Assembly (NCBI GenBank): GCA_947175245.1
Contig: CAMWLW010000003.1
Location: 1 to 64,000 of the forward strand
Source: an uncultured Bacteroidales bacterium
GTDB taxonomy: Bacteria; Bacteroidota; Bacteroidia; Bacteroidales; Muribaculaceae
Length of the DNA: 64,000 bases
Direction: 5' to 3'
Part shown: positions 5,091 through 38,685 of the stretch, piece after piece
Layout: every line of letters starts with the position of its first letter
Numbering within the stretch: position 1 is the first letter of the stretch
Notes under the pieces: generated by a model
The model's database searches: none
Told to the model about the DNA's origin: nothing
What the model saw: only the letters and a program-made list of their open reading frames with translations
Translations under genes and position numbers: made by a program

Positions 5091-5624
5091 ATGGAGTACA
5101 CGCTTAATGAACTGATAGCTGAGTGGAAGATGCGCAAGGGTCTCGTACCCTTGCGTGTCGACGCTGCGGTCACGCGCCATGACGCGTTTGAGATTGACGA
5201 GTACGCGGCGCGGGTCATAAGGGAGTGGTATGAGGAGCTGCTCGACACGGCCGATGTGTCGCTGCTAGATGTCGAGGATATCACCGAGCGTGTAGACATC
5301 GAGGATTTCAGCGACGGTGTGGCTGTGATGAGGCTTCCCGACGGTTGCCGCCGGCTGGTGGAGGTGACGATGGAGCAGTGGCGCTGCCCGGCAACGATTG
5401 TCACCGACCCTGACTCGGAGCTCGCGCTGAGACAGCGCTCGGTGTTCGGGCGCGGGGGCGCATGCTGTCCGGTTGCTGTCACCGAGGGGGCGGGCAGGGT
5501 GAGGCTGTACAGTTTCAGGGGTGCCGTGACGCCGTCGCCGGTGAGGGTGCTGGGTGTCATGAGTCAGCCCGAGGGGGTGATACGCTGCTCGCCGAGGGCG
5601 CTGTCGTTGCTGTTCAATTCTTAA
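5091..5624 (+). CDS. Unknown protein between capsid and portal (possible head-connector-like)
   Basis: Starts 4 bp after the capsid stop; start set at MEYTLNELIAEWKMRK. No family recognised; role inferred from position. Confidence 0.5.
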   Translation: MEYTLNELIAEWKMRKGLVPLRVDAAVTRHDAFEIDEYAARVIREWYEELLDTADVSLLDVEDITERVDIEDFSDGVAVMRLPDGCRRLVEVTMEQWRCPATIVTDPDSELALRQRSVFGRGGACCPVAVTEGAGRVRLYSFRGAVTPSPVRVLGVMSQPEGVIRCSPRALSLLFNS

Positions 5625-5637
5625 ATACTGATTTACT

Positions 5638-7019: not shown

Positions 7020-10000
7020 TCAGCGTACGGCGACCTTGGCTACCACATTGCCACACTTGACGATGTAGATGCCTGTCGAGACGTTGACTGTGATGTCGTC
7101 GCCTGTGGTCTCACCGGCGGCAATCACTATGCCCGAGGTTGCAGCCACGGTGTAAGCGTTGCCGGCTGCGAAGCCCTTGAGCACGATTGTCTTGCCGTCG
7201 ACAACGATGGCCGCGCGGCCGTCGGCGGTAACATTGTCGATGCCCGACTCGTCATCGTCGATCCAGATGACGTTAGAGCGGTCAGACTCGACGGTCTCGC
7301 CGTTGACGGTGCCTACCGACATGACGTAGTAGCGTACGGGTACCGAGGTGTCGACGCCCTTGTCGGTGAAGCCGGGGGCGGTGAGCATGTCAGAGGCGGC
7401 CTCGCCGTCGCGATACACGTTGTAGCCGTCGAGGGTCACGGCGGGCTGTGCGGCAGTATAGGCGATGTCGTCGATCATGAAGCCGAATGCTGCCTCGGGA
7501 TCGTCGGTGACATGGTGCAGGGCGAAGTACTTGGCGTTGGCGGGCAGGGTGAACTCAAACTTGGTCCAGCCGGTCTCGTCGGGGCATACATAGCCGCCGT
7601 CAAGCATCTGCTTGAAGTCGGCGGGGTCGTTGCCGGTGGTCGAGTACATCACGAGAACGGTCTCGGGGTATTCGTCTGAGAAGATGTTCATCCAGAACGA
7701 CATCGTGCTGCCGGGTACGACCTCGGGCGAGATCAGCCAGTCGTCTGACTCTACCTTGCTGGCCGAGGTGCAGAGCAGGTATTGTGTGCCGGTGTGGGCT
7801 GCGAACAGCGGGCTGTCGGTGATCGAGGCGTCAAATACCTGGAAGGCCTTGGCCGAGCCCTTGCCGGGGTATGAAACCTCTGAGATGCCCCATTCCTTAC
7901 CCTCGTCGAGGTCTATGTTCCTGAAGCCTTTGAGGGTGGCGCCCATCTCCCAGGCGTCGATGGCCTCGAAACTCTCGGTGAACTTGGGTTCGGTCCAGCT
8001 CAGTGTCACGTCCGAGCCGTTGAGGCTGTATGAGAGGTCGGTGACAACGGGGATGGGGGCATTGAGCACCACCACCTCTTTCTCGACTTTGGATGTCGAC
8101 TCTGAGGGCTGACCCTCGAGGTTGAAGGTCACGAGCATGTCGCCCTTGTCGGCTGCCTTGGGTGTCACGTCAAAGCTGAGGGTGACTTTCTTGCCGGCAG
8201 CGATGGTGGCGGGAGCGTTCGAGTCCTTGAGGTCGGCTACGGTACCGTTGTTGCCGGTGGCCTTGAACGTGTACTGGGGCATGGGCTGTGTGGCGGTGCC
8301 GGCGTTCTCGATCTCGACGCTGTAGGTGAGGGTCTCACCGACAGCGCCGCGGCCGGGGCCGCTGAACGACGATATGGTCATCATGTCGTCGGGATAGTTG
8401 GCTACCGAGTAAGAGTCGAGCATGAAACATTCAGAGTAGCCGGTGATCTTGACGCGGATGGTGATCTGTACCCAGGGCTGGTTCTGGCACATGGCCGGGA
8501 GCGATACGAGCTTGTTCTCCCACGGCCCGCGGCCCGACTCGGGGGCGAACTGTGCCACGGGCTCCATCTCGAGAGCGGGCGATGTGGCGTAGACGGTGAC
8601 GAGTGAGGGAGCGAGGTTGCCGGTGTAGAGGTCGAGGTTGAGTTTCACGTTGTTCATGCCGGTGGTCGAGAAGCGCGGCAGCAGGATCTGTGACTCACCG
8701 TCCCACATGCAGGCCAGAGCGTTGGCGGTAGAGTTGGCGGCGTCCTCGTCCATATCGCGCGGGTCGACAAATCCCCATGTCGACTGCAGGTAAGAGAGGT
8801 GTTCGATCGAGAGGGGCTCCTTGAAGTCGACAGCCTGGCCGCTGGTGGGGAAGGTCTCAACCAGGGGCAGTGTATAGAGCTTGCCGAGGTGGATCATGAA
8901 CGAGTTCATCTCCTCACAGGTGCCGACGGCGTTCTTAGACACGACGCCGAACATGAACATATCCTGCTTCGAGGCGTCGGGAACGGTGAACTCCCACGTG
9001 CGGTTCTTGCCGATGTCGGCGACGGGACGCCACTCGTCGTTGATGCGGCGGTAGATGATGACGTCGGTGAGGTCGGGACCGGTGAACTCGCCGTTCGCGT
9101 TGTAGTCGTCGAGGTCAATCTCGAGGGAGAGCTTCATGTTGTCGTCTGACACGCTCGTGAACACATAGGGTGTTGCCGGACGGTAGATGCCGCAGTAAAC
9201 GGTGGTCTCGGCTATCTGGCCCTGACCCTTGTCGCTCGATGTGGTGACGCGTATGATGTTTGAACCCTGGATGGCGGGAACTTTAACCGACACGGTCTCG
9301 CCGGGCTTGCCTGTCACTGATGCGCTGCCGGCCTCAGACACGGCCTCGGCTGTGATGACGGTGGCGGCATCGAGCGCGGTGCCCGAGATCGAGAGTGTGG
9401 GCATCTTGAATGTGAGCGTGGCTGCGAGTTCTCCGCGAGCGCCGGCTACGGCTGTGACGTCGGTGACGGCAGCCGGGCTGTCGCTCGACGAGTTGGCCAC
9501 CTCGACCATGAAGTTGCGGGCATACAGGCGGTAGTTGCCTAATGGCGATATGTAGTGGATACCGATGTACCACTCACCGGCTTCGGGAACCTGGAAGATG
9601 GTCTCAGAGAGCTCGAAAGCGGGGTTCTTGTAGACGGTCGAGGCCTCGCGTATGATTGTGGGGCGCGAGCCGTTGGGGCGCTGGCACAGCGCTACCTCAT
9701 AGATCTCGTCGGCGGTGAAGAAGTGGTAGCCTGTCCACACCTCCATCGTGAAGCGGTAGTGTGCGTCCTTGTCGGTGAAGTTGATGGCGGGCAGGAAGAG
9801 CCACTCGTTGCCGGTGTCGCCTGTTGAGCTTGACGTGGGGTAGAGGCAGTAGAAGCCGCCGGTGTGCTCCGACTGGTCGTCATAGCGCCAGCCGCGCATC
9901 GACTCGTTGTTCAGTATGTCCTTGACGGGGGTAAACATCGATATCACCTCGGGGTCGAGGTCTTTCTCGCCCTCTTCGGGGCCGAGGTAGACGGGGAGCG

Positions 10001-11633
10001 AGAGGGCGCCGTCGACATAGAGCTTGCCCGAGACGCCGGGTGCCGATGTCTTGCCGTCGCAGATGGCATAAACCTCGGCGCGGTGAGCTACCACGCCTGT
10101 GGGCGGGATGGTGATGTCGAGTGTCGTGGCCTTGACGGGCTCGGGTGTCATGAGCACCTTGTCGACATATACATTATAGGTGACGTTGGCAGCGTCGATG
10201 GCACCGCCGTTGGCGCCCTCGGTCACTGCATCCCAGCTCACGCGGGTCTCGGTGAACACTACGTTGGCCGGAGCCTTGGGCACGTCGTTACCCAGGGCGC
10301 GGTCAAACAGCAGGGCCGAGCCGAGCACTTTGCCGTCGTCTGACAGCACGTAGGGTACTACCGAGAAGTGGTGCAGCCCCTCGTCGGTGTTGACCGGAAT
10401 GGTGACGTCTGCGCCGGCATTGCCGCTGTATGAGCCGCTGACGGCGTTGCCGTCAACCGTCACTTCGAGATAGACCTTGCCGGTGATGGCTTTGCCGTTC
10501 TCGAGCTGTGAGGGCAGGGTTACAACGAAGTTGCCCTGTGTGGCGCCGGCCGCTACATTCCAGCTCTTGAGCGCGGGAGCCTTGGGGCCGTTGGCATTGA
10601 CGTAGGCGTCCTTGACATAGAGCATCGCATATTGAGGGCCGTTGGGCAACTTGCCCAGGTAGGTGTAGTTGCCGGTTGTGGGCATCACAAACAGGCCGGT
10701 GAACTCGCCGTCGGCGTCGGTGTACACGTCAACGGGCATGATGAAGCCGTTGTCTTTGGGGCTGTAGATCATGCACTGGGTGTATTTGTCGATCTCGTAG
10801 GGGAGAGTGTTGGTCTGGTTGAAGCGCTTGGCTTTGCTGTCATATTTCTTGAGCAGTCCCGACTCATCGAACATGTAGAGCGAGTTGTCGGCCGGGTTCC
10901 AGCCCAGGTTGAGCCAGTCGCCGGGCATGTTGACACCTAAGTTGGTGAACTGACCGCTCTTGGGGTTGAACTTCTGGAGCAGGTATGAGGTGCCTGTTGC
11001 ATTGGCAGTGATTACATACGCAACGTCCTCGGCGCTGTCATAGGCGGCAGCATACACCACTTCTTCGAGCGAGTCGAAGATTGACGCTGTAACCTGGCTC
11101 GTCACGGTGCCGTCGCTGAGGTTCTGGATATAATAACCGGCGTCAGTTACATAGTATTCGTTGTCATAAACCTTTCCGTAGACATAGAATGAGTACACCT
11201 GGTCGCCGCGCACGAAGCCGGTCGAGGGCGAGAACTGGGTGCTGTGTTCCCACACGAAGCTGATTGATAGGTCGGCGTTCAGTGTGCCCCAGCCTGTGGT
11301 GCCCACAGAGCCGTTGTAGGTGCAGTAGCCCTGCAGGCCGGTTGCCTTAGGAGCGGCCTTGGCGGGTACGGGATTGTAATAGTTGGCTGTGAATGTACGG
11401 GGAGCCTTGGTGACGGCCTGGAGTTCGGGGAAGATGTTGCTGGTTTTTTGTGAGGCCTCGTTTGCGCGGGTGCGGGGCAGCATGTGGGGGGCGATTTTCA
11501 CACAAGGCTGCTCGACAGTCTTGGCGAACGCCCGCTCGGGGGCATTGCCCTCGCGCTGTATCTGAGCCGGTGCTGTCAAACAGCAGGCAAGCATAAGCGC
11601 ACTGAAGCCTAAAGCTTTAAGAGATTTTTTCAT
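7020..11633 (-). CDS. Large secreted multidomain adhesin-like protein (choice-of-anchor J/MAM-like domains, FN3-like repeats) with T9SS-type C-terminus
   Basis: 1537 aa; signal peptide; C-term STGIYIVKCGNVVAKVAVR typical of T9SS sorting-like ends. Confidence 0.75.
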   Translation of the reverse strand: MKKSLKALGFSALMLACCLTAPAQIQREGNAPERAFAKTVEQPCVKIAPHMLPRTRANEASQKTSNIFPELQAVTKAPRTFTANYYNPVPAKAAPKATGLQGYCTYNGSVGTTGWGTLNADLSISFVWEHSTQFSPSTGFVRGDQVYSFYVYGKVYDNEYYVTDAGYYIQNLSDGTVTSQVTASIFDSLEEVVYAAAYDSAEDVAYVITANATGTSYLLQKFNPKSGQFTNLGVNMPGDWLNLGWNPADNSLYMFDESGLLKKYDSKAKRFNQTNTLPYEIDKYTQCMIYSPKDNGFIMPVDVYTDADGEFTGLFVMPTTGNYTYLGKLPNGPQYAMLYVKDAYVNANGPKAPALKSWNVAAGATQGNFVVTLPSQLENGKAITGKVYLEVTVDGNAVSGSYSGNAGADVTIPVNTDEGLHHFSVVPYVLSDDGKVLGSALLFDRALGNDVPKAPANVVFTETRVSWDAVTEGANGGAIDAANVTYNVYVDKVLMTPEPVKATTLDITIPPTGVVAHRAEVYAICDGKTSAPGVSGKLYVDGALSLPVYLGPEEGEKDLDPEVISMFTPVKDILNNESMRGWRYDDQSEHTGGFYCLYPTSSSTGDTGNEWLFLPAINFTDKDAHYRFTMEVWTGYHFFTADEIYEVALCQRPNGSRPTIIREASTVYKNPAFELSETIFQVPEAGEWYIGIHYISPLGNYRLYARNFMVEVANSSSDSPAAVTDVTAVAGARGELAATLTFKMPTLSISGTALDAATVITAEAVSEAGSASVTGKPGETVSVKVPAIQGSNIIRVTTSSDKGQGQIAETTVYCGIYRPATPYVFTSVSDDNMKLSLEIDLDDYNANGEFTGPDLTDVIIYRRINDEWRPVADIGKNRTWEFTVPDASKQDMFMFGVVSKNAVGTCEEMNSFMIHLGKLYTLPLVETFPTSGQAVDFKEPLSIEHLSYLQSTWGFVDPRDMDEDAANSTANALACMWDGESQILLPRFSTTGMNNVKLNLDLYTGNLAPSLVTVYATSPALEMEPVAQFAPESGRGPWENKLVSLPAMCQNQPWVQITIRVKITGYSECFMLDSYSVANYPDDMMTISSFSGPGRGAVGETLTYSVEIENAGTATQPMPQYTFKATGNNGTVADLKDSNAPATIAAGKKVTLSFDVTPKAADKGDMLVTFNLEGQPSESTSKVEKEVVVLNAPIPVVTDLSYSLNGSDVTLSWTEPKFTESFEAIDAWEMGATLKGFRNIDLDEGKEWGISEVSYPGKGSAKAFQVFDASITDSPLFAAHTGTQYLLCTSASKVESDDWLISPEVVPGSTMSFWMNIFSDEYPETVLVMYSTTGNDPADFKQMLDGGYVCPDETGWTKFEFTLPANAKYFALHHVTDDPEAAFGFMIDDIAYTAAQPAVTLDGYNVYRDGEAASDMLTAPGFTDKGVDTSVPVRYYVMSVGTVNGETVESDRSNVIWIDDDESGIDNVTADGRAAIVVDGKTIVLKGFAAGNAYTVAATSGIVIAAGETTGDDITVNVSTGIYIVKCGNVVAKVAVR

Positions 11634-11735
11634 TTGGTTTTATAAGTTTTAGAAAATTGTTTTATTGGTTACCAAATCACGCTTCCGGCCAAGGAAATGT
11701 GAGCATCTCCCAACAGTTAGTTGGTAATTTGGCTA

Positions 11736-11743
11736 CAAATATA
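11736..11743 (-). promoter_or_regulatory. Bacteroidetes-type -7 box TATATTTG for the 1537-aa gene
   Basis: Reverse complement of caaatata is TATATTTG (TAnnTTTG). Confidence 0.45.
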
Positions 11744-12000
11744 GCCTAAAATTTTTAAAAATCTAAAATTTTGGCTCAAAAAGAAAATTTTTGCTCATTT
11801 TTTTGGTAAATCATTAGATAAATTCTACTTTTGTCGGGTAATAACCGTCTACTGAAAATTCTTACAGTTTTAAAGCAATCCGGCCGCTTAGGGTTATCAC
11901 ATATAAGGTATAATTGAATTTGACGCTAAGGTATAAGTTTCTGCGGTTTTCGACTCTCGGCTTGCCTAAGTGTCATATTGCTCATTATAGAAAAGCTTAA

Positions 12001-18640: not shown

Positions 18641-19507
18641 TTACAGTCCATTGATTAGCTGGGTGCCTGTTATTACTTCCATTTTGGAGAAAGCGAACAG
18701 CTTTTTACCAAGGTCTTTGAGTGATGCCCCTATGTGATATACATCTTCATCGATGATCAGGAAGCGGTCGTGAGCCTTAGTGTATTTATGAAGTGTCACG
18801 CCCGGATATTGTTTGTTATGTCTATCAGTATCCTGTATTAATTGTCGGGATATTTGACTATCGTAGATGTCTACTGTAACCCCGGGTTTACGCTTTGACA
18901 ATTGTACAAGAACCGAATCATCAATATAATTGTCAATTAGGGCGATTCTCGTCTTAGCTTGTCGGATTAGGTCGGCCACAAGTGCGTATGCATCAAAAAT
19001 CTGGCCGTTGAAGAATATGCCCTCTATAGGCTGCAATGATGAGCGGACAAAGAAATCTACTTTCTCATCAAGTTTAGAAAGATGACGATCGTGTTCAGAT
19101 AGACGTCGATCCATTCTATCTTCCAACTGCAACAATCGCTGATTTATGGAATAACCTCTTAGAAGATAATCTTTCAGAATTTTATTTGCCCAAACTCTAA
19201 ATTGAATACCACGCGTAGATTTTACTCTATACCCAATGGATGTAATCATCTCAAGATTATAGTGTTCTACTTGATATGTTTTACCATCAGAGGCAGTTAT
19301 CGCAAATTTTGCGACAACTGGTATGTCGGCCAATTCTTCTTTGAGTGCGTTAGCCACATGTTTACCGATGGTTTTCACGTCACGACCAAATAATTCGGCT
19401 ATCTGGTTTCTGTTCAGCCATACCGATTCATCCTGAACCCTTACGTTCAGTTTTAAAGCCTCATCAGGCTGGTAAAGTACTATTTCATCAGTTTGCGACT
19501 TTTCCAT
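18641..19507 (-). CDS. RhuM-type DNA-binding protein fused to PLD-like C-terminal region
   Basis: N-term VRVQDESVWLNRNQIAELFGRDVKTIGKHVANALKEELADIPVVAKFAITASDGKTYQVEHYNLEMITSIGYRVKS (RhuM-like); C-term IALIDNYIDDSVLVQLSKR...HDRFLIIDEDVYHIGASLKDLGKKLFAF (PLD-like). Confidence 0.8.
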   Translation of the reverse strand: MEKSQTDEIVLYQPDEALKLNVRVQDESVWLNRNQIAELFGRDVKTIGKHVANALKEELADIPVVAKFAITASDGKTYQVEHYNLEMITSIGYRVKSTRGIQFRVWANKILKDYLLRGYSINQRLLQLEDRMDRRLSEHDRHLSKLDEKVDFFVRSSLQPIEGIFFNGQIFDAYALVADLIRQAKTRIALIDNYIDDSVLVQLSKRKPGVTVDIYDSQISRQLIQDTDRHNKQYPGVTLHKYTKAHDRFLIIDEDVYHIGASLKDLGKKLFAFSKMEVITGTQLINGL

Positions 19508-26503: not shown

Positions 26504-26508
26504 CAATG

Positions 26509-26777
26509 TTCCGTTGAGACGGGACAAAATACATATTTAAAACACGAAAGTGTCTTACTGATTCTCAGTGTCTGAAGTGTAGCAGCAAAGAGACATAAAA
26601 CGAGGAAAGGAAGACACTCTCGCGTCGTACAGTCATACGGCGTGGGAGTGCTATACCGACCCAAGTTTTATGAGGCAACTGCTACCGCCTGACACTATTG
26701 GGACAGGATAGCGGCTCCTGCGCTTTCGTCATCATTATACTCTTTCCTCGAGGAGCCGGAGAGACTGAATCAATACC
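26509..26777 (+). ncRNA. Candidate structured leader RNA or independent ncRNA
   Basis: Successive hairpins including ACAC-GAAA-GTGT and a 15-bp stem at 26615-26650 with G-U wobbles consistent with + strand RNA; downstream of a TAAATTTG box. Confidence 0.4.
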
Positions 26778-27881
26778 ATGACTCTGACAAACAAATATCT
26801 TGACGGGTTCCACACCTGGTGGACAGCACAGGGACACCCCTCGCGCAGCGCCGACGGTTATCGGTCGGGAATACGCCGCGTGAATGACGAATTCTTTGTA
26901 CCGGCAGTGAAGAAAAACATGTTCGATGTGCTTGACGATGCGATATCATCGGGCAGCGCGGTCGACTGGCTGACGGCACTTATCGGAAGCATCAATGCAC
27001 GCATAGGGCAGACCGACGATGTGACTGCCCGGAAGCGTCTGCAGGACAATCGCAGCCAACTCAAACGCTTTATCGACTATGTTGCCGAGCTTCAGGACTC
27101 GGTCGCCGCGTCAGAGGCCGATGATGATGCCGCTGCCCCCGAATTGCTGCCTGACGGCAAGCAGTATTATGACCGTGATATGCTTGTACGCAACTTCGCG
27201 CTGCGTATCAAGACTCAGGATCGCATGAGCGACGGCAAAAACGTTTTCTTCCCTATACGCATTGTCGGACGCCTGTTTACCGCGGCCGACCGCGATAAAC
27301 AACAGCTTTTCCACGATGCCGGTCTGCTCGCAGCCAACGGTAAACCGATTGAGTTCAGGCGTTGGTTCAAGGACTGGGTGCGGAACATAGTCGAAAACGT
27401 GATTTTCCACACACCCAAAGGCGATTACCGACTTGCCCAAATCGACGGTCTGCTTATTGACAGCAAGCGCATGAAAGCATGGGTGCGTGTTAACGGCAAA
27501 GATATCGTGTTACTGTCTGAAAGCCCCGAGGGTATGCGCGAGATGAAGATATCATCGCTCAGAAATATACATCTCGACCATGCCGAGCGCATGGAAGATC
27601 TGCTCATAAGGCTGGAACCCGTACTGATGACTATGAGACAGCTTACTGATGATATCAAGGCCGCGGTGAAAGACCGTAAGGTGACCGTCAATGGTGTGGT
27701 AATTCAACTCGACAAATACCGCCCCCGCACACTGACCGTGTTGAGCAACTGGTATTGTGACAACGTCGACTGGAACCGTATCGCACCCCTGTTGCCGCTT
27801 CTGTTCACCGAGCTCAACTACATCGCTGCCGCCACACGGCTTGTAGCCATGTCTGATGCCGACAACCTTAGAAAGCACTGA
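26778..27881 (+). CDS. Protein of unknown function (367 aa), start of accessory island
   Basis: Long intact ORF; no family recognised; N-terminus weakly resembles recombinase SAM-like domains. Confidence 0.6.
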   Translation: MTLTNKYLDGFHTWWTAQGHPSRSADGYRSGIRRVNDEFFVPAVKKNMFDVLDDAISSGSAVDWLTALIGSINARIGQTDDVTARKRLQDNRSQLKRFIDYVAELQDSVAASEADDDAAAPELLPDGKQYYDRDMLVRNFALRIKTQDRMSDGKNVFFPIRIVGRLFTAADRDKQQLFHDAGLLAANGKPIEFRRWFKDWVRNIVENVIFHTPKGDYRLAQIDGLLIDSKRMKAWVRVNGKDIVLLSESPEGMREMKISSLRNIHLDHAERMEDLLIRLEPVLMTMRQLTDDIKAAVKDRKVTVNGVVIQLDKYRPRTLTVLSNWYCDNVDWNRIAPLLPLLFTELNYIAAATRLVAMSDADNLRKH

Positions 27882-27994
27882 CCGAGGTGTTAAATATTAT
27901 TAAACGCGACTGCCGACTCATTCTAAACGACTACATTTACTGCAGAAAGTGCCGAATCGCTTGAAAGGACGTAGGCAGGAATTTTGACAAAAAG

Positions 27995-29185
27995 ATGGAA
28001 ACGACTAATATTTCGGATGTTTTTGAAGCAATAAGCAACTTTTATAGTTCGCCCACCTATGCTTTACTGAAACGACGCCTGCTCACGGTTCCGTTTATGG
28101 AAACTATAGGTAAGAGTCGTAGTGAAACGTGTCACAGCGCTTTCCTTCACTGGTTTTTCCATGCACCTGATTTAATGCAGATAGTTGCATCCCCTGTAGC
28201 CTCGTTATTGAAATTATTGGCTATGAGGAGTAAGTATGATGCGGCCCTGATGGATCGGGAATTGTGTCGGGATATTTTAACCGATAACCTGATTGTTGAT
28301 AATGTGTGTGCCGAGGTGGAACAGTCCACTAAATCAGATGAAGGGAATGGTCGTGCAGACATAGTGCTGGATGTTTATTATAGGTTAAAAAACCACTGTA
28401 GCCAATGTCAGCAGCGATTGAGAATAGTGATAGAGAATAAGATAGATTCAAAGGAGGGTGAGAAACAATGTATGAAGTATCACGCTCACTACAGCCAAAA
28501 GAATGATGTGGCACACACATTATATGTTTTTCTTGCACCCTCGGTTGTAGATCAACTGTCATCGCCCCATTTTATTCAGATTACATATAACGACCTTGTC
28601 ACCAAGGTGATTGAACCTCTTATGTATGACCGGGTGGCCATATCTCCGAGAGCACATGGATATATCACCAATTTTTTAGAGAATATAACATCGCTTAGAA
28701 ACACTAATATCCATCCCCAAATAGCTATGGACTCAGAATTAAAGAAACTGCTCACCGACTTCTATAATAACAATCAGGAACTGATACTTGCTTCAATAGA
28801 AGCGGCTGCTGATGAAGAAACGCGTGAAGTAGCCAGGAAAATACGCGACCATAACGCTAAAGATTATACTTCATATACATTGACCTACAATGGAGCCGGG
28901 AAAAATGTAGTCATTGAGGTAAAGGCAAAGAGTAAACTTGCAAAATCTTTTGTAGAGGCTTACTGTAATGTGCATCCCGAGGCATCGCTATCAGATATGC
29001 AGCGCATCCTCAGTGAAGTCAAGAATGGAGTGATAACTGACGAAGAACGCGACCGCACCTACCAAATTGATGGCAAGGACTGGTATATCGACGCCGGTAT
29101 CTGGGGCAAAGGACACAAATATCTCGATACCCTTCTCAAAGTAATCCGTAAAAACGGATTTGAAATTACTGAAATCGAACAATAA
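27995..29185 (+). CDS. PD-(D/E)XK nuclease superfamily protein (PDDEXK_4-like)
   Basis: SETCHSAFLHWFFH... GNGRADIVLDVYYRL...LRIVIENKIDSKEGEKQCMKYHAHY (D-x-ENK core). Confidence 0.78.
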   Translation: METTNISDVFEAISNFYSSPTYALLKRRLLTVPFMETIGKSRSETCHSAFLHWFFHAPDLMQIVASPVASLLKLLAMRSKYDAALMDRELCRDILTDNLIVDNVCAEVEQSTKSDEGNGRADIVLDVYYRLKNHCSQCQQRLRIVIENKIDSKEGEKQCMKYHAHYSQKNDVAHTLYVFLAPSVVDQLSSPHFIQITYNDLVTKVIEPLMYDRVAISPRAHGYITNFLENITSLRNTNIHPQIAMDSELKKLLTDFYNNNQELILASIEAAADEETREVARKIRDHNAKDYTSYTLTYNGAGKNVVIEVKAKSKLAKSFVEAYCNVHPEASLSDMQRILSEVKNGVITDEERDRTYQIDGKDWYIDAGIWGKGHKYLDTLLKVIRKNGFEITEIEQ

Positions 29186-29211
29186 ATAATCTTATAAAGA
29201 CGATAAAAATC

Positions 29212-29787
29212 ATGAAACTGACAAAAGAACAGCAAATCGAGAAGTGGCTGGAGGCCAACCCCGGTAAAACAACTAAGGATTTTCTGCTTGAAGTCCGCTG
29301 TCCTGACGAAGCAAGCCGTAAGGCAATGGAAAATCTCCTCGATGCGCTTGATGTCAACGGTATCAACTACGGCATCTTTACTGAACTCAAAAACTATAAG
29401 AGTAATCAGATGCAGCAGAATGTGCCGCTCAACGGTATTGACTCAGTGGTATTCGACCTGATGATTGCCCCAGGTATTGGTCACAATAGTTGGTTGATTG
29501 AGGCTGATATGCCCGATGAAGTTCTTGGTAAGCAGATTGAGAAAACCAGGGGCACCTACGAAGCAATACCTGCAGAAGCGTTCGCGTGGCTGTTAAGTCA
29601 GTGGTGTCCCGATTTTGAGATCAACTCCATTGATGAGAAGCAGTATAGGAAGCTAATGTGGGAAGATATGGGTGGCTTCCTTGGTAAAGTCATCGGTAAC
29701 CGAGGATTCGCACAATGGAAAGACCCAAAATTTGCTCAAAAAGTGGTCGAAACATATTTGCGAGACAAGAGTGCAGCAGGCTGTTAA
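29212..29787 (+). CDS. Unknown protein (191 aa)
   Basis: Intact ORF, 26 bp downstream of the nuclease gene on the same strand. Confidence 0.55.
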   Translation: MKLTKEQQIEKWLEANPGKTTKDFLLEVRCPDEASRKAMENLLDALDVNGINYGIFTELKNYKSNQMQQNVPLNGIDSVVFDLMIAPGIGHNSWLIEADMPDEVLGKQIEKTRGTYEAIPAEAFAWLLSQWCPDFEINSIDEKQYRKLMWEDMGGFLGKVIGNRGFAQWKDPKFAQKVVETYLRDKSAAGC

Positions 29788-29861
29788 GAAATTAAGTTAA
29801 AATCGCTGAAGCAAGGTGTTAAGAGGATGTTTAACTTTCTATAATGCAAATGTTTGGCTAT

Positions 29862-29869
29862 CTTTGTGA
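29862..29869 (+). promoter_or_regulatory. Bacteroidetes-type -7 box TATCTTTG
   Basis: Exact TAnnTTTG 20 bp before ATG 29889. Confidence 0.55.
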
Positions 29870-29888
29870 TAGAAAAATATTTATAGAT

Positions 29889-30398
29889 ATGTTCCCACCG
29901 ATTCCATCATTCCAGACCTCACGACTTATAGCCGTCGCTGCACGTCCGGCTATGGGCAAGACTCCCTTTCTTTGTGCTCTTGCCCAAGAAAGATCAAATC
30001 AGTACCCTGTACTGATTAAATCGTTAGAATATTCAGAAAAGCAGATACTCAATAAGTTGAGCTATCCTGTAGAATCAATACTAATTGATGATGCACCGCA
30101 TCTATCTTTTCAGGAGTTAGAGAGCTGTGTCAGGGATATGGTTGTAACGCATAGAATTAAAACTGTGATTATCGACTATGTTAACCTTATCCGTGATATT
30201 GAGGCTGATGCCATATTCTCCGCACTCAAATCCTTAGCTCAGGAGTTGGATATCGAGATTATAGCAGGAGTGTTGGTGCCGAGACGACAAGATGGCGTTA
30301 AAGACCCGACTGTTACCCTCGCAGACCTTCCGATGAAAGGAACTGAGCCGATCGATGAGTTCATTCCATTGGAAAGCCAAATGCAGTATTGTGTCTAA
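29889..30398 (+). CDS. Stand-alone DnaB-helicase-like ATPase domain protein
   Basis: RLIAVAARPAMGKTPFLCALAQE (Walker A as in DnaB), VIIDYVNLI (Walker B), IIAGVLVPRRQDGVKDPTVTLADL (DnaB-like C-terminal motif). No DnaB N-terminal domain. Confidence 0.7.
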   Translation: MFPPIPSFQTSRLIAVAARPAMGKTPFLCALAQERSNQYPVLIKSLEYSEKQILNKLSYPVESILIDDAPHLSFQELESCVRDMVVTHRIKTVIIDYVNLIRDIEADAIFSALKSLAQELDIEIIAGVLVPRRQDGVKDPTVTLADLPMKGTEPIDEFIPLESQMQYCV

Positions 30399-30412
30399 TT
30401 CCGTAACTAACT

Positions 30413-30661
30413 ATGTCGAGACTGAGACTGCTTGCAATCGTGGTGCTGACGGTGGCGTTCCTGCTGTCGCTGTGGGCTGTACCCGCTGCAATGATTACGG
30501 TAGCGCTGACCTTGGTTCAAACACTATGGATCAAGGTCGCGCTATGTGTGGTTGCCGTCCTTTGGCTCCTGCTGTTGCGCCCGTGGGCTATGTTCCGCGA
30601 CCCTCGCTTCGGGCGGTTTGTCAGCGATATGCGTCGCGCTTTAATCGCATTAATATCATAA
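30413..30661 (+). CDS. Small predicted membrane protein (82 aa)
   Basis: Two hydrophobic segments; intact ORF. Confidence 0.45.
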   Translation: MSRLRLLAIVVLTVAFLLSLWAVPAAMITVALTLVQTLWIKVALCVVAVLWLLLLRPWAMFRDPRFGRFVSDMRRALIALIS

Positions 30662-30668
30662 AAATACA

Positions 30669-31139
30669 ATGAACAACCAATATTCAGATTTTTACCATCA
30701 CGACTACGATGGCGACGGTATGCCATTCAGCACACCTGTAAACCCCACAACCACCATCTTTCAGCTTAAATGTAGCAAAGAGGCTGCCGCAGCGGCAATC
30801 GCATTAGCTAACGATGCTATGCTCAACAATTCTACTGCTGAAAAGGAGTATGTAAGTGTCAAAGACTATACCATCGGCGAACATTTCTGCATAGAAATAC
30901 GCACCAACAATTTCATTCCTCAGTTGTATGATGCAATCAAGGCCGTCAAGGGGGTTGAGACGCTCAATTATGCCGTCTACGATGCCGCCCACGGCCGTAT
31001 GATTACCGACCACAAGAGCATGGGCAATGCCATCAAGCGCGCCTATAAACTCGACGTAGACATTGAGGTTGATGACCAACCTGATATGTTCCCCGAAGAA
31101 ACCGAACTCTCGCTCCCCGACCTCAATGACGCTGACTGA
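30669..31139 (+). CDS. Unknown protein (156 aa)
   Basis: Intact ORF in operon-like spacing. Confidence 0.5.
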   Translation: MNNQYSDFYHHDYDGDGMPFSTPVNPTTTIFQLKCSKEAAAAAIALANDAMLNNSTAEKEYVSVKDYTIGEHFCIEIRTNNFIPQLYDAIKAVKGVETLNYAVYDAAHGRMITDHKSMGNAIKRAYKLDVDIEVDDQPDMFPEETELSLPDLNDAD

Positions 31140-31479
31140 GAAAATGTGCAAAGCCTTGCATCAACCGATGATTGCCGTAGATGCGGAAAAAATTGATGCG
31201 CTGATAGGCGACGGAAAGGATGTTCAGACAATCACTATTGAGGGCGACTCGGTGGCAGCACTTGTCAATCAATTGAAAGACGATTCGCATCTCCACTCGG
31301 CCGGCAAAGTCCTGTTCGAACTCATAATAGCCCCGGACTATGAATTCCCTTTCACTGAACTCGCACTCCTCTCGGATTATCTTGTTACGCTCCCTTCGGA
31401 CCCCGAAATCATCTGGGGATGCCACCGAGCCACCAAACAATCCCAAAACCTTGAACTAAATATATTGATTAGGTCGTAA
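31126..31479 (+). CDS. Unknown protein (about 117 aa)
   Basis: Overlaps end of preceding ORF; shares VLFELIIAP with VVFDLMIAP of the 29212 ORF. Confidence 0.5.
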   Translation: MTLTEKMCKALHQPMIAVDAEKIDALIGDGKDVQTITIEGDSVAALVNQLKDDSHLHSAGKVLFELIIAPDYEFPFTELALLSDYLVTLPSDPEIIWGCHRATKQSQNLELNILIRS

Positions 31480-31487
31480 AATTAAGA

Positions 31488-31582
31488 AGCAGTCCCGTTG
31501 CTGCGAGTTGGCTACTGTGGGCCGTTCAAATACCGGAATAACCAAGCTCCGAGGGTGGTACAGAACGGGACTGCTCCTTTTT
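31488..31582 (+). repeat. 88-nt dyad-ended repeat copy A plus T-run (candidate sRNA, attenuator or MITE)
   Basis: agcagtcccgtt...aacgggactgct followed by cctttt; 82/88 identity to copy B, 83/88 to copy C, no indels. Confidence 0.9.
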
Positions 31583-31696
31583 ATTAAATGTCAGAATGTT
31601 TTATGGTTGAATTATCGGCTTGAATTTTGTGGTTTAAGCTTGTTTTATGTAAATTTGCAGTGCTACTGAAAAATTACATAAATCGAACATCCAATT

Positions 31697-32848
31697 ATGG
31701 AACGATACATACATAGAGCTATGACTGAGGCTATTGGTGAGGCCTCAAATTATTTCTCGGTTATTACTCTCACGGGGCCACGACAGTCGGGTAAATCGAC
31801 ATTGCTTCGTCATATATTCCCGACATTACCCTATGTGTCAATGGAAAATCCTGATACGCGTACCCGTGTAAAATTTGATCCGCGAGGCTTCCTTGATTCT
31901 TTTCATGATGGCGTAATAATTGATGAGATTCAACATACCCCCGAACTGCTATCTTATATTCAGGGAATTGTTGACGAGAACCCTCGGCGTAAGTTCTATC
32001 TGACAGGCAGCTCGCAGTTTTCGCTTTTGAAAAATGTAACACAAAGTCTTGCCGGCCGAACGGCCGTATTTGAGCTAATGCCGCTAAGTATCTCTGAGAT
32101 CGGCACATTTATGGATAAAAACAGCGTGAATGATATTCTATACAAAGGTTTCTATCCCGCGATATGGAGTGATAAGAATTTGCCGCGATTGCTCTACCCT
32201 AATTACATAAAGACTTACATTGAGAGAGACGTGCGCGATATTCTCGCGATAAAAGATCTGGATTTATTTCAGAGGTTTATTCGCTTGTGTGCCGCCCGTA
32301 TTGGGTCTATATTCAATGCGTCCGAGCTCTCAAATGAGTTGGGAGTGGCCGTAAACACGATCAATTCATGGCTTTCGGTACTGCAGGCTTCTTATATAAT
32401 TTATCTGCTTCCGCCGTTCTTTACCAATACACGAAAACGTTTGACCAAGAGTCCTAAAATTTATTTCACTGATTGTGGCTTAGCGTCATATCTGCTTGAT
32501 ATAGATTCGCCTCAGACTATGGCCCGGGATAAGATGCGCGGGCATCTGCTTGAGAATGTGGTGGTTATGAATTTTCTTAAGAACCGATATAATCAAGGGG
32601 TGAACGGCGGTTTGTATTTCTATAGAGACTCAAACGGCAACGAGGTTGACCTGCTTGTTAAAACCGGCTCGCGGTATTCTTGCTATGAAATCAAATCATC
32701 GTCCACATTCCATCCTGATTTTACCAAAGGACTCAGGAATTTCGAGAAAAACTATCCCGACATAGTCAATGAAAAATCAATTATTTACACGGGTGAAAAT
32801 ATTCCGGGTTTTGAGGGAATCTCGGTTGTGAATTTCGCCGGTATCTGA
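31697..32848 (+). CDS. AAA ATPase with DUF4143
   Basis: ITLTGPRQSGKSTLLRHIFP... VIIDEIQHTPELLSYIQGIVDE... and DUF4143-type C-term; own TAAATTTG box at 31650-31657. Confidence 0.88.
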   Translation: MERYIHRAMTEAIGEASNYFSVITLTGPRQSGKSTLLRHIFPTLPYVSMENPDTRTRVKFDPRGFLDSFHDGVIIDEIQHTPELLSYIQGIVDENPRRKFYLTGSSQFSLLKNVTQSLAGRTAVFELMPLSISEIGTFMDKNSVNDILYKGFYPAIWSDKNLPRLLYPNYIKTYIERDVRDILAIKDLDLFQRFIRLCAARIGSIFNASELSNELGVAVNTINSWLSVLQASYIIYLLPPFFTNTRKRLTKSPKIYFTDCGLASYLLDIDSPQTMARDKMRGHLLENVVVMNFLKNRYNQGVNGGLYFYRDSNGNEVDLLVKTGSRYSCYEIKSSSTFHPDFTKGLRNFEKNYPDIVNEKSIIYTGENIPGFEGISVVNFAGI

Positions 32849-32930
32849 TGCGCGTTACGAATGACTGTTAAAACGCCGTGCTCGCAATTGTTAAGAATAG
32901 AATTAACACCCAAAATATATGTAGTATTGT

Positions 32931-32938
32931 TATCTTTG
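32931..32938 (+). promoter_or_regulatory. Bacteroidetes-type -7 box TATCTTTG upstream of repeat copy B
   Basis: Exact TAnnTTTG; predicted start within a few nt of the repeat. Confidence 0.55.
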
Positions 32939-32950
32939 TAAAAAATTAAT

Positions 32951-33046
32951 GAGCAGTCCCGTTGCTGCAAGTAGGCTACTGTGGGTCGTTTAAATATCGG
33001 AATAACCAAGCTCCGCGGGTGGTACAGAACGGGACTGCTCCTTTTT
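32951..33046 (+). repeat. 88-nt dyad-ended repeat copy B plus T-run (candidate sRNA/attenuator)
   Basis: gagcagtcccgttgctgc...aacgggactgctcctttttc. Confidence 0.9.
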
Positions 33047-33108
33047 CTCCTCTAAATAAAGCAATGCGCCAATCGCCCAATCCCCAACCCTCAAACTAAA
33101 TATAATAT

Positions 33109-33903
33109 ATGTCTAAAACTTATAGTAAATCCGATTACGAGAATGCTGGCTCTCCCGCTAATCTAATTATACCTGAAGGGGTGACGGAGATAGATGAGTA
33201 TGCATTAATGAATTGTATTTTGCTGCGGAGCGTAATAATTCCAGCCAGCGTTAGAAAGATAGGTTACTCAGCATTTTGGGGTTGCACTTCTCTACAAAGC
33301 GTTAATATCTCAATGGGATTATCAGAGATAGATGATTGCGCATTTTGGGGATGCATCTCACTACAGGGCATCAGCATACCTGAAAGCGTGATTGTGATTG
33401 GCGCTTGCGCATTCAGTGACTGCTCCTCTCTGCGTAGCGTCCACCTCCCTGAGAGTGTGACGGAAATATATGATGCTGTATTTAATGGGTGTAGTCTTGA
33501 TACCTACAAAATAGAGACATCTAATTTTTTACTTAAGAATGGGCTTCTCATTGATAAACGCGATAATAAGCTTGTTTCATCAGCTTTTACTGAAAAAACA
33601 AGAGTTTTCATCCCTGAGAGTGTGACGGAGATTGGCGTCAGTGCATTCAGTGAATGTACCTCACTACAAAGTGTCATTATTCCCAAGGGTGTAACGAAAA
33701 TTGACGAATACGCCTTCTACGGCTGCATATCTCTGGAAAGTGTCAAAATTTCAGAATGCGTAACAACGATAGACGACAACGTATTTGAACGCTGCACTTC
33801 TCTATCTACGGTTAATCTTCCCAAAGGCATAACATGGCATAATGTCAAAAACAAATTTAAAGATTCTCCGTGGGGTCAGAACAAACCCAAGGAAAGCAAA
33901 TAA
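33109..33903 (+). CDS. BspA-like leucine-rich repeat (LRR_5) protein without signal peptide
   Basis: Repeated (I/V)PEGVTEI..YAF..C.SL.SV.IP units; N-terminus MSKTYSKSDYENAGS lacks a signal peptide. Confidence 0.85.
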   Translation: MSKTYSKSDYENAGSPANLIIPEGVTEIDEYALMNCILLRSVIIPASVRKIGYSAFWGCTSLQSVNISMGLSEIDDCAFWGCISLQGISIPESVIVIGACAFSDCSSLRSVHLPESVTEIYDAVFNGCSLDTYKIETSNFLLKNGLLIDKRDNKLVSSAFTEKTRVFIPESVTEIGVSAFSECTSLQSVIIPKGVTKIDEYAFYGCISLESVKISECVTTIDDNVFERCTSLSTVNLPKGITWHNVKNKFKDSPWGQNKPKESK

Positions 33904-33934
33904 TCACTAAACTAATATATGTCAAAACTAAAGG

Positions 33935-34028
33935 AGTAGTCCCGTTGCTGCAAGTAGGCTACTGTGGGTCGTTCAAATACCGGAATAACCAAGCTCCGAG
34001 GGTGGTACAGGACGGGACTGCTCCTTTT
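33935..34028 (+). repeat. 88-nt dyad-ended repeat copy C plus T-run (candidate attenuator)
   Basis: agtagtcccgttgctgc...gacgggactgctcctttt; 17 nt before ATG 34045. Confidence 0.9.
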
Positions 34029-34044
34029 CATTGCTGAATAGATT

Positions 34045-34527
34045 ATGACAGGAATAGATGAATTATTAACACTGTGCCGGCAGTGGGCCGAGCGGGAAGA
34101 CGAAGTGACAGTTGTCGAGGCTCTTACTCTGCTGACAGAGTTCTATATGGAGCAGTGCGGAGTAAGCCTTACGCAGCGCACTCTGGTAAACGAGTGTGGC
34201 GAATATTGGTTGTACAAACTCAGCCTGACTGACCATCCGTTGGCTGAACGGGTTGGCAAGGATTCATTCACGCAACTGATGCCCCATTTCTCGGAGGAGT
34301 TTGCCCGGAATAAGCAGCACTACGGGGACTATGATATATCCAATCTGTATGAGGATTCAATGGTCAGTGGCATGACGGAAATTATGACCGACGAATGTTT
34401 GGATGACAAACTTCGCATAGCCTTCGCCTGCGGTTTTATTGAGTACTATAAAGAATACAAGGAGTTTGAGCGTACTTATAATAGGTGGATACAAACTCAA
34501 AACAAAGAGGATGGCAATGAAAACTGA
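34045..34527 (+). CDS. Unknown protein (160 aa)
   Basis: Intact ORF; overlaps following gene start. Confidence 0.5.
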   Translation: MTGIDELLTLCRQWAEREDEVTVVEALTLLTEFYMEQCGVSLTQRTLVNECGEYWLYKLSLTDHPLAERVGKDSFTQLMPHFSEEFARNKQHYGDYDISNLYEDSMVSGMTEIMTDECLDDKLRIAFACGFIEYYKEYKEFERTYNRWIQTQNKEDGNEN

Positions 34528-35896
34528 AAATAAGAATGATAATCTGCCCGTGATGATGTACCTCCACGGTTTTATGTCGGGGGCCAACGGGGCGAAGCAA
34601 CGGCAGTTGCAACGTCATTTCAAAGGCCGCTACCGCGTGATTGCGCCCGAACTTACCGCCAACCCTGTGGAATCGCTGAAAATTATCAACGCGTTGATTG
34701 AGGAGGAAAACCCCGAAATAATAATCGGCACATCGCTCGGCGGCTGGATGGCTATAGAGTGTAATATCGGCTTAGCTGACGTTATCGTAATCAATCCGAG
34801 CCTCACGCCACAGACATCGATTTCGCGGTGGCGTGATCAGGAGCAGACATATTTCTGCAAACGTCTTGACGGGGTGCAGACCTACACGCTGACTCAGGAT
34901 ATTCTCGACCTTTACAAAGACTATGATGCCATATCAACGGCGGAATACCGCCGCCTCCACATCTCGGCTCTTTGCTCCTCTGCTGACGAATTGCTTGGCG
35001 ATTCGCATTATACGGTGCTGCGTGAATTTCTGCCCAATGGTTATTGCAAAGTAGTGAACGACTTTGGCCATCAGTGCCGTGACGCCGGTATGCCCCATCT
35101 CTATGAGTTGATTGAAAAGGTTATAGCCCGTCGCAAGCAGATTGCCGACAATATGATGACCTTCGAGGAGTTCAAGGAGATGGTGCGCACACGTCCCACG
35201 CCTGATACCCCCGGTTGCTATCGATTGAAAATACTCCGCACCGATAATCCCCGCGTCGAGTCGGGTTATTATGCCACGAAAGAAGACGCCGAGGCCGAGA
35301 TGCTGAAGCGTGCATGCAATGACAAGGAACTGACATTCAAGATTGACCGCATAGGCTTCGGCCAGGTTGCGTCGGTGCAGTTCCCGGTTGAGGAGTGGCT
35401 ATGTGATTGTGAAGGCAAACTGCTGGAGCAGGCCAGTTGCTCGTCCTTCCACTATCAGCAGCCGGGTATTTACGGTAAGTTTTTCGGACACGTCCTGTCG
35501 CCCCGTCGCCCATTTATGGTCAACCAATACGTGACGGTGCGCAATCGGCAGGGACAGTCAGTGCTCGGGATAGTTCTCAGCGAGGGCTTGAGTCTGGATT
35601 GGGGTTACCGCAATTATCGGTGGACGTTAGATGAGTGGATCAGAGAGGGCAACCAACCCGACGAGTGGGTTAATACAACCCTATTTCCCGGCTCCGACGA
35701 AGATGAATATTTCGTGCAGTTCGGCCCGTTTACCGAACTGATGGAAAACTTCGCCTTCTTTCACCCTATGAACATGACCCCGGTACAGCGGATGCTCTCC
35801 GACGAAGAAACCGCTGACCTCAAAAAATGGCACCGCGACTACCTCGACTATTTAGACTCAGAAAAAAACAGTGATAACGACAATTCACAAAACTGA
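34517..35896 (+). CDS. YqiA-like alpha/beta hydrolase fused to a C-terminal extension of unknown function
   Basis: MMYLHGFMSGANGAKQRQL...IIIGTSLGGWMAIEC (GxSxGG) ...FGHQCRD; about 250-aa C-terminal extension. Confidence 0.7.
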   Translation: MKTENKNDNLPVMMYLHGFMSGANGAKQRQLQRHFKGRYRVIAPELTANPVESLKIINALIEEENPEIIIGTSLGGWMAIECNIGLADVIVINPSLTPQTSISRWRDQEQTYFCKRLDGVQTYTLTQDILDLYKDYDAISTAEYRRLHISALCSSADELLGDSHYTVLREFLPNGYCKVVNDFGHQCRDAGMPHLYELIEKVIARRKQIADNMMTFEEFKEMVRTRPTPDTPGCYRLKILRTDNPRVESGYYATKEDAEAEMLKRACNDKELTFKIDRIGFGQVASVQFPVEEWLCDCEGKLLEQASCSSFHYQQPGIYGKFFGHVLSPRRPFMVNQYVTVRNRQGQSVLGIVLSEGLSLDWGYRNYRWTLDEWIREGNQPDEWVNTTLFPGSDEDEYFVQFGPFTELMENFAFFHPMNMTPVQRMLSDEETADLKKWHRDYLDYLDSEKNSDNDNSQN

Positions 35897-36842
35897 CCCG
35901 GAATTTCCACGCCGTCTGCGGCGGATTGGTGTGGACTGCCCGGAGGCAATCTATTGCCGGGGTAATCTTGACCTCCTGAGTCAGTATAACCGGGTTGCGA
36001 TTATCGGCGCGAGGGCTGCCGACGGGGAAGGCTGCGGGGCAGCCTATCGTCTCGGCCAAATATGGGCGCGCAATGGCTATGTCGTGGTCAGCGGATTGGC
36101 GTTGGGCTGCGACACGGCGGCCCACCGAGGCTGCCTTGACGAGGGTGGAAAGACAATCGCTATCGTGGCGAGCGGACTTGACATCTGCCACCCCAGGGAG
36201 AACAAAGCACTCGAACAGGAAATCATCGACAAAGGCGGACTGATAATCTCCGAACAACCTCTCGGAGTCAAAGCCAATCCCACGCGCCTCGTTGCCCGCA
36301 ATCGCCTACAGGCAGCCCTCTCCAATATCGTCATTCTTGCCCAGTCACCTGTCAAGGGCGGAAGCATGTACACCATCAATTTCGCCCGACGCTACGGAAA
36401 ACGAATCCAGGCCGTCCGTTTCGACCACGAGTCTGAAATCAACGGTGGCAATTTCCTCTTGCTCAACCAGGGCGTAGCCGCCGAGGCGCCATTAGTATTG
36501 GAACGTCTTGGCCCGACTGAGATGAGAAGTCGTGGGCTCGCACATGAAGCCTTCAACTCGGTCAAACATCAACTGTTGGCTGATATAGACCATATTCTCG
36601 CCACTCCCGAGCTGGCATCATCACCGATGCCGCCGTTCAACTCAGCCGCCACCCGTGAGCAAGTGCGTCTCGGCGCCTATCTCACATGGTGGCGAGACCA
36701 CGGCTCAGAACCGCGCCCCAAAAATCCAATCCTGTGGGGCGAATTTCTCTACTACTGTAATCGCACCTTTCCAACAATCACCACCCCGGCAAGTATTAGA
36801 GATATAATCGATCGATATTCTGATAAAAAGAATCCCCGATAA
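35871..36842 (+). CDS. DprA/Smf-like Rossmann-fold protein with C-terminal extension
   Basis: VAIIGARAADGEGCGAAYRLGQIWARNGYVVVSGLALGCDTAAHRGCLDEGGKTIAIVASGLD...PRENKALEQEIIDKGGLIISE. Confidence 0.82.
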   Translation: MITTIHKTDPEFPRRLRRIGVDCPEAIYCRGNLDLLSQYNRVAIIGARAADGEGCGAAYRLGQIWARNGYVVVSGLALGCDTAAHRGCLDEGGKTIAIVASGLDICHPRENKALEQEIIDKGGLIISEQPLGVKANPTRLVARNRLQAALSNIVILAQSPVKGGSMYTINFARRYGKRIQAVRFDHESEINGGNFLLLNQGVAAEAPLVLERLGPTEMRSRGLAHEAFNSVKHQLLADIDHILATPELASSPMPPFNSAATREQVRLGAYLTWWRDHGSEPRPKNPILWGEFLYYCNRTFPTITTPASIRDIIDRYSDKKNPR

Positions 36843-37677: not shown

Positions 37678-38685
37678 TTAGTGTTGGGATTTGCCATTCC
37701 CTTTATTCTTGGCTTTTGTGCTTAGAGTCTTGATGGTGTCAAGATACGCTTGTTCAACAGGAGTTAGTTCACGAACTTGAAATTTGCGATACTCTTCACG
37801 CGCTTTATCCATTGCCTGCTGATGGCTGACAGAGCCTGGACCATTCAGCAAAGCCTCACCAGTTGAGGATAGTATCGTATCGAGTTGCCTGACATAATCT
37901 TCCATATACAAAGGACGACGACGCATTGCCTGAATCTCGGCAAAATCAAAGTAACCTGAAACAAGATTATTTAGAATCTTCAATTCATTCTCGCTAAGAT
38001 AATTCTTGGCAATCTGAGCATCTCGGAGCGTAGGATGATCTCCCTTGAATGATGTCAGACCCATCATCGGTGCATCGGCATCGGCACGCTTAAAAATCAC
38101 CTCAGCAGCAGTATTACCATGAGTAGCAAAATGAAGTTTGTTTTGTACAATCTTGAAGAACTCTATTGAAATCTCCGAACGAGGGTCATAGTCAACAGCT
38201 GTGGCATAAAGGTCGAGCACTTGGCGATACATTACTTTTTCAGATGAACGTATGTCGCGGATACGATCAAGCAACTCGCGCCAATAAGCACCACCGCCAT
38301 TACCCTTTAACCGCTCATCATCTATGGTGAATCCTTTGATGATATACTCCTTCAGTCGTTCAGTAGCCCACCGCCTGAAATGCGTAGCAATCAACGACCT
38401 GATGCGATATCCCAGCGAGATAATCATATCGAGATTATAATAAGTCACATTGTAGGATTTACCATCGGCGGCAGTTGTTCGGAATTTCCGAACAACTGAA
38501 TCCTCTTCAAGTTCACCATCTTCAAATATATGCTTAATGTGCTCGCTTACATTGGCTTTGCTTGTGTTGTACAGCTCGCACAGTTGCTGCTGGGACAGCC
38601 ATACAGTCTCGCCTGTAAACTTCACTTCGATATGGATCGCACCGTCCTCACTGTGATATATGATAATCTGATCGTTATCGTTCAT
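37678..38685 (-). CDS. RhuM family protein
   Basis: VKFTGETVWLSQQQLCELYNTSKANVSEHIKHIFEDGELEEDSVVRKFRTTAADGKSYNVTYYNLDMIISLGYRIRS and full RhuM C-terminal region. Confidence 0.92.
   Translation of the reverse strand: MNDNDQIIIYHSEDGAIHIEVKFTGETVWLSQQQLCELYNTSKANVSEHIKHIFEDGELEEDSVVRKFRTTAADGKSYNVTYYNLDMIISLGYRIRSLIATHFRRWATERLKEYIIKGFTIDDERLKGNGGGAYWRELLDRIRDIRSSEKVMYRQVLDLYATAVDYDPRSEISIEFFKIVQNKLHFATHGNTAAEVIFKRADADAPMMGLTSFKGDHPTLRDAQIAKNYLSENELKILNNLVSGYFDFAEIQAMRRRPLYMEDYVRQLDTILSSTGEALLNGPGSVSHQQAMDKAREEYRKFQVRELTPVEQAYLDTIKTLSTKAKNKGNGKSQH

Follow-up and report, generated by a model that had tools for sequence, protein, structure and literature searches.

Short imperfect dyads of 57-141 nt, the attC sites, separate the genes of integron arrays, and T-box leaders carry AGGGUGGNACCGCG just before the 3' strand of their terminator stem. 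Bacteroidales possess a further kind of gene array, the recombinase-associated acquired interbacterial defense (rAID) arrays, which according to the available text of their description are defined by a recombinase together with conserved intergenic motifs and by a 41% G+C limit (PMC12247911). The window analyzed here, a 64,000-nt stretch of DNA from an uncultured Bacteroidales bacterium, contains a low-G+C island (45% versus 58% for the genome) with a co-oriented run of genes spanning 26778 to 36842. Three copies of an 88-nt element are found inside this array, in a stretch of 2.6 kb, all co-oriented with the genes (Table 1). The element is not described in the available text of the rAID account (PMC12247911).

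Table 1. Coordinates of the elements, promoters and genes discussed in the text
Feature	Coordinates	Strand	Remarks
88-nt element, copy A	31488..31575	+	9 nt past the stop of the FtsZ-C-terminus-like gene; 5' of the DUF4143 ATPase gene
88-nt element, copy B	32952..33039	+	5' of the LRR_5 gene, behind the array promoter
88-nt element, copy C	33935..34022	+	Between the LRR_5 gene and the 34045 gene (ATG 23 nt downstream)
Array promoter module before copy B	32855..32938	+	GTTAAGA..TTAAC operator-like repeat and TATCTTTG; -7 box 32931-32938
Second promoter module copy	29781..29866	+	Before the DnaB_C-domain gene (start 29889)
Promoter-like TTTTG..TAAATTTG	31625..31657	+	Between copy A and the DUF4143 gene
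Array head gene	26778..27881	+	No known domain; 55-58% conserved, heading related arrays in G037 and G020
FtsZ-C-terminus-like protein	31144-31479		111 aa, small, stand-alone; similar small gene in G169 (L026)
AAA_14/DUF4143 ATPase gene	31697..32848	+	PADLOC candidate PDC-S01
LRR_5 (BspA-type) gene	33109..33903	+	Downstream of copy B
Genes after copy C	34045..36842	+	34045 (no family), UPF0227 hydrolase-like, DprA/ShosA-like
Leader RNA, ~190 nt	26539..26734	+	Upstream of the head gene; distinct from the 88-nt element
Leader RNA copies	L082:1512-1709, L083:1532-1731, L084:1499-1698, L085:1520-1719, L086:1511-1712		
Leader RNA copies, further	L087:708-907, L088:1500-1698, L089:1498-1700, L091:1508-1710, L092:1328-1528		
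Short start hairpins	Window 26507-26526, 31657-31668; G037 L065 ~5605-5625		Reverse strand in G037

The accessory gene array

No Phage_integrase or other catalytic domain was found in the head protein. Weak integrase SAM-like matches at the N-terminus (E ~0.002) are limited to its relatives, and the single-sequence AlphaFold model is unusable (pLDDT 44). In addition to the genes of Table 1, the array encodes a PD-(D/E)XK protein, a DnaB_C fragment and small proteins without a known family, and PADLOC models match three of the genes (PDC-S26, PDC-S01 and ShosA). The FtsZ-C-terminus-like protein is possibly a division-targeting accessory protein; its likeness to FtsZ derives from matches inside frames of ~480 aa and from shared residues, not from a family model.

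The array resembles the rAID systems without qualifying as one. As in the available description of the latter (PMC12247911), short accessory genes are co-oriented behind a conserved head gene, G+C is low and intergenic motifs are conserved, here in the form of a promoter module that recurs within the array and in the homologous array of G037. The same text places at the rAID head a predicted tyrosine recombinase, a homologue of B. fragilis BF9343_RS08045; for the head protein here, the weak SAM-like matches of its relatives are the one hint of such an activity. In that account rAID arrays have at least two co-directional genes under 41% G+C, and in this array only the LRR_5 gene lies below that value, at 40.9%, with the others at 41.4-55.7%. 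The contents also differ from those reported there, in that defense-candidate genes (PDC-S26, PDC-S01 and DprA/ShosA-like) are present and no SUKH-type immunity gene was found in the array.

The homologous array in G037 has several gene types and right-hand neighbors (DUF2795-like and cobalamin-adenosyltransferase-like) in common with the window. It ends with a tyrosine integrase and contains its own, different 188-nt duplicated intergenic segment. We note that RhuM-family genes flank the island of the window on both sides (19142-19320 and 38320-38498), with 64% identity over a 180-nt stretch. In another genome, G209, a WG-repeat-type gene is flanked by two copies of the 3' end of a 34045-gene homologue (L023:9644-9840 and 11617-11811; 93% over 197 nt); the arrangement is a predicted gene capture of the cassette type, the second copy being truncated.

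The copied unit and its limits

Alignment bears out the initial annotation of this DNA, which had described three exact 88-nt copies with 5-6 pairwise substitutions. The copies differ at six (A/B) or five (A/C and B/C) positions, corresponding to 94% identity, without indels, and blastn comparison of the copies within the window gives E ~1e-30. The 12-bp inverted ends (AGCAGTCCCGTT/AACGGGACTGCT) are likewise present in all three, with perfect pairing in copies A and B and two G-U pairs in copy C, and each copy is directly followed by the same U-run, CCTTTT(T), as had been claimed. The pattern AGCAGTCCCGTTGCTGC, allowing up to three mismatches, occurs three times against 0.14 expected. Identity amounts to 82-83 of the 88 core positions, 6-7 of the next 8 nt on the right and 9-14 of 20 nt on the left, and farther out it falls to ~30%, which is random. 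The homologous unit is ~100 nt in length: similarity continues for ~8 nt past the right end of the element and for 6-20 nt past the left end, then stops sharply at unrelated flanks. These sharp limits indicate that the copied unit is the element itself and no longer segment.

Such a unit, with inverted ends, 6-7% divergence and unrelated sequence on both sides, is what would be expected of a small, non-autonomous MITE-like repeat with inverted ends of 12-18 bp, mobilized in trans by a transposase or recombinase and inserted three times. Furthermore, homologues of the neighboring genes in other genomes, namely of the gene downstream of copy C and of the FtsZ-C-like gene, have no such element alongside. 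However, dispersed copies are absent, with none outside the array in the whole genome, and no transposon with matching inverted ends was found there. The orientation is always that of the genes, and a search for target duplications, a check suggested at the outset, found none consistent in the flanks of the three copies. We therefore consider a mobile repeat unlikely.

The 188-nt segment in G037 indicates that intergenic duplication is common in such arrays, and in principle the copies could be functionless, a neutral leftover of segmental duplication inside the array. Yet eight substitutions have accumulated with no indel and no broken outer-stem pair while the flanks diverged beyond recognition, which makes a neutral origin very improbable.

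Folding and strand preference

In all copies a G+C-rich outer stem of 12-15 bp stands directly before the U-run and encloses a structured interior of ~60-64 nt. The short loop of an ordinary terminator (3-8 nt) is absent from the element, and a standard terminator scan does not list it. All four stem substitutions are wobble-compatible on the + strand, and the copy-C changes at positions 3 and 77 allow G-U pairing, in keeping with what was first noted. In a + strand cloverleaf, the eight variable positions are all either unpaired or wobble-compatible, and all three copies keep every pair; on the - strand, by contrast, copy C has mismatches at both of its outer-stem changes. When eight substitutions were placed at random, all cloverleaf pairs remained intact in 1.2% of trials, a figure biased by the cloverleaf being copy A's own minimum-energy fold; the outer stem alone remained intact in 14%, which is not significant. 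Pairing compatibility on the + strand is thus weak evidence for an RNA structure. Copies B and C favor inner folds other than the cloverleaf, and the CCG/CGG inner stem of the initial annotation proved to be one of several alternative inner folds rather than an established feature. Relative to shuffled sequences, the + strand fold yields z-scores of -2.4 (A) and -2.6 (B), and the minus strand does better, with -4.9 (A) and -3.6 (B).

The good folding of the minus strand leaves room for a role of the DNA itself. The element is reminiscent of attC in being a short imperfect dyad between array genes with a length within the range of these sites. Identity with integron attC is ruled out, since the RYYYAAC/GTTRRRY core sites are missing from both strands of all copies; no integron integrase was found among the array proteins scanned. 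A recombination site of another type, delimiting cassettes, adopting an attC-like single-stranded fold and used by the head protein or an integrase, would explain why unrelated genes of a single array are separated by near-identical sites. The tyrosine integrase at the end of the G037 array is consistent with this proposal, as is the definition of rAID arrays by a recombinase and conserved intergenic motifs in the available text of PMC12247911. It is nonetheless improbable, given the missing attC core motifs, a head protein without an integrase catalytic domain, copy-C changes that break minus-strand pairs and the presence of only three sites among ~10 genes. The more far-reaching idea that an integron-like system of gut Bacteroidales, lacking IntI and attC, joins its cassettes at the dyads, each of which would mark the capture of a defense or immunity gene, would be a long shot.

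Position in array transcripts

The TAnnTTTG -7 box is established for Bacteroidetes (PMC7366714). In the array it belongs to a promoter module with the consensus TGTYAAGAA..GTTAAAA..GTGTYAAGA..TTTAAC..TTGGCTATCTTTG, in which one or two GTYAAGA-N-TTTAAC operator-like repeats precede the box. Two copies of the module lie in this array and two in its G037 counterpart (L065, reverse strand, 5497-5605 and 7173-7285), that is, in arrays of two genera, and its operator-like repeats are likely the binding site of a common regulator. Together with its short flank, copy B begins 3-10 nt past the predicted start of transcription from the array promoter. Between 26 and 37 kb the + strand has only four TAnnTTTG boxes. 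The interval separating copy B from the LRR_5 gene contains none of them, and expression of LRR_5 would hence need read-through of the copy-B stem. No promoter lies directly upstream of copy A or copy C. The DUF4143 gene behind copy A has a promoter-like sequence of its own, and a plain terminator would therefore suffice there.

Copy B, with a promoter, a start and a terminator-like end within ~100 nt, is the one best suited to being a stand-alone, trans-acting sRNA. On this account the three copies would specify RNAs of ~95-100 nt that end at an intrinsic terminator and are made from their own promoter (B) or by mRNA processing, for which the intra-operonic sRNAs known in Bacteroides thetaiotaomicron (PMC7366714) provide a precedent. 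Against this, only copy B has a promoter, the analysis identified no target, and expression of the genes downstream of the elements would be poor. An sRNA is accordingly a rather doubtful explanation.

We favor, with a probability of roughly one half, the reading of the element as a transcribed, structured leader or intercistronic RNA that acts in cis as a terminator or attenuator of the rAID-like array. This function fits the positions of all three copies. The element would sit at the 5' end of array transcripts or between their cistrons, where the long outer stem and CCUUUU(U) would form an intrinsic-terminator-like hairpin around the structured core. It would thereby set the amount of transcription entering the next gene, be it DUF4143, LRR_5 or the 34045-DprA group. 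We infer the individual steps, namely transcription, termination, conditional read-through and any controlling signal, from the sequence. Of the sRNA, attenuator and MITE proposals made at first, the attenuator is preferred because copy B lies directly behind an array promoter and no further promoter precedes the next gene; the other two are kept as rivals.

The likeness to terminator-type attenuators in 5' leaders, whether riboswitches or of the leader-peptide kind, is seen in copy B, with its succession of promoter, structured leader, terminator-like stem plus U-run, and gene. The element differs in that the outer stem encloses the whole core and two of the copies lie between or after genes, and no alternative antiterminator or ligand class was recognized in it. 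As in T-box leaders, the 3' strand of the terminator stem is immediately preceded by a similar sequence, GAGGGUGGUAC. We attribute this to coincidence, as the element has no stem I/specifier, differs in the last T-box bases, is too short and gives no Rfam match to E=10. A leader peptide is unlikely because the 14-codon frame of copy B is not preserved in A and C, which have no start and carry stop- and amino-acid-changing substitutions. Similarity between 31438 and 33078 (CAATCCC..AACTAAATATA) was rejected as a repeated leader, the first place being coding sequence.

If the element is a conditional terminator, arrays of acquired defense genes would carry a repeated RNA control module that divides them into separately controlled units.

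Distribution

The genome comprises 2.79 Mb in 148 contigs (96.5% complete), and only three copies of the element occur in it, all in one array. This agrees with the proposed association with accessory genes. Blastn found no match in 297 genomes of the family, and a covariance model found none in 198 relatives or, under stricter filters, in 393 genomes of the order. The term "family" used in the initial annotation is so far unsupported, as no second carrier genome was found among these. Plasmid and phage records contain no match. Exact core patterns are without a match in GTDB contigs and viral contigs, a scan that relatives with a changed core would escape and that may lack near relatives of the window genome. 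The window has no Rfam match at the gathering score, and nothing credible was obtained to E=10 on 31400-34100, in line with the earlier remark that no described family was recognizable. The 88-nt element is a real, genome-restricted, repeated and structured intergenic element, new in sequence and familiar in kind.

Looser pattern scans returned chance matches. A viral contig (L041) has a similar 19-nt core in a dyad; it is placed differently and has no relatives, and is regarded as a chance match as well. Between genes of a similar island, G209 has a 70-nt dyad-ended element (L023:618-687) with a T-run, a stem of 15-16 bp and two inner hairpins. It matches the 88-nt element in type and is unrelated to it in sequence.

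A covarying leader RNA at the array head

A separate leader RNA is located behind a TAnnTTTG-type box at the head of the array. It consists of a near-invariant hairpin (ACACGAAAGTGT and CTTACTGATTC) followed by a long, multi-part hairpin. By sequence it was found in 10 of 139 genomes of the family, where it precedes array-head genes, LRR_5 genes and others, and 11 copies can be aligned. In this alignment (A5), 94% of cells pair and, among the 11 sequences, both partners have changed in 14 of the 37 pairs; none of 500 shuffles is comparable, and slid controls come nowhere near either. The leader has no match in Rfam. Its assignment as a new structured RNA, judged from this covariation, is well supported and constitutes a more general finding than the 88-nt element; it is probably a new cis-regulatory RNA family, and may be the better find of the two. 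With the leader RNA at the head and copy B farther along, array transcripts, as judged from their inferred starts, would begin with structured leaders at least twice. The shared promoter module and the covarying head leader offer handles on array expression and extension.

Finally, transcripts from array promoters tend to begin with a short hairpin (GTTCCGTTGAGACGGGAC, CAGTGCTACTG and ACTGATTCACTCAGT), the first of which has its stem letters in common with the 88-nt element's outer stem.
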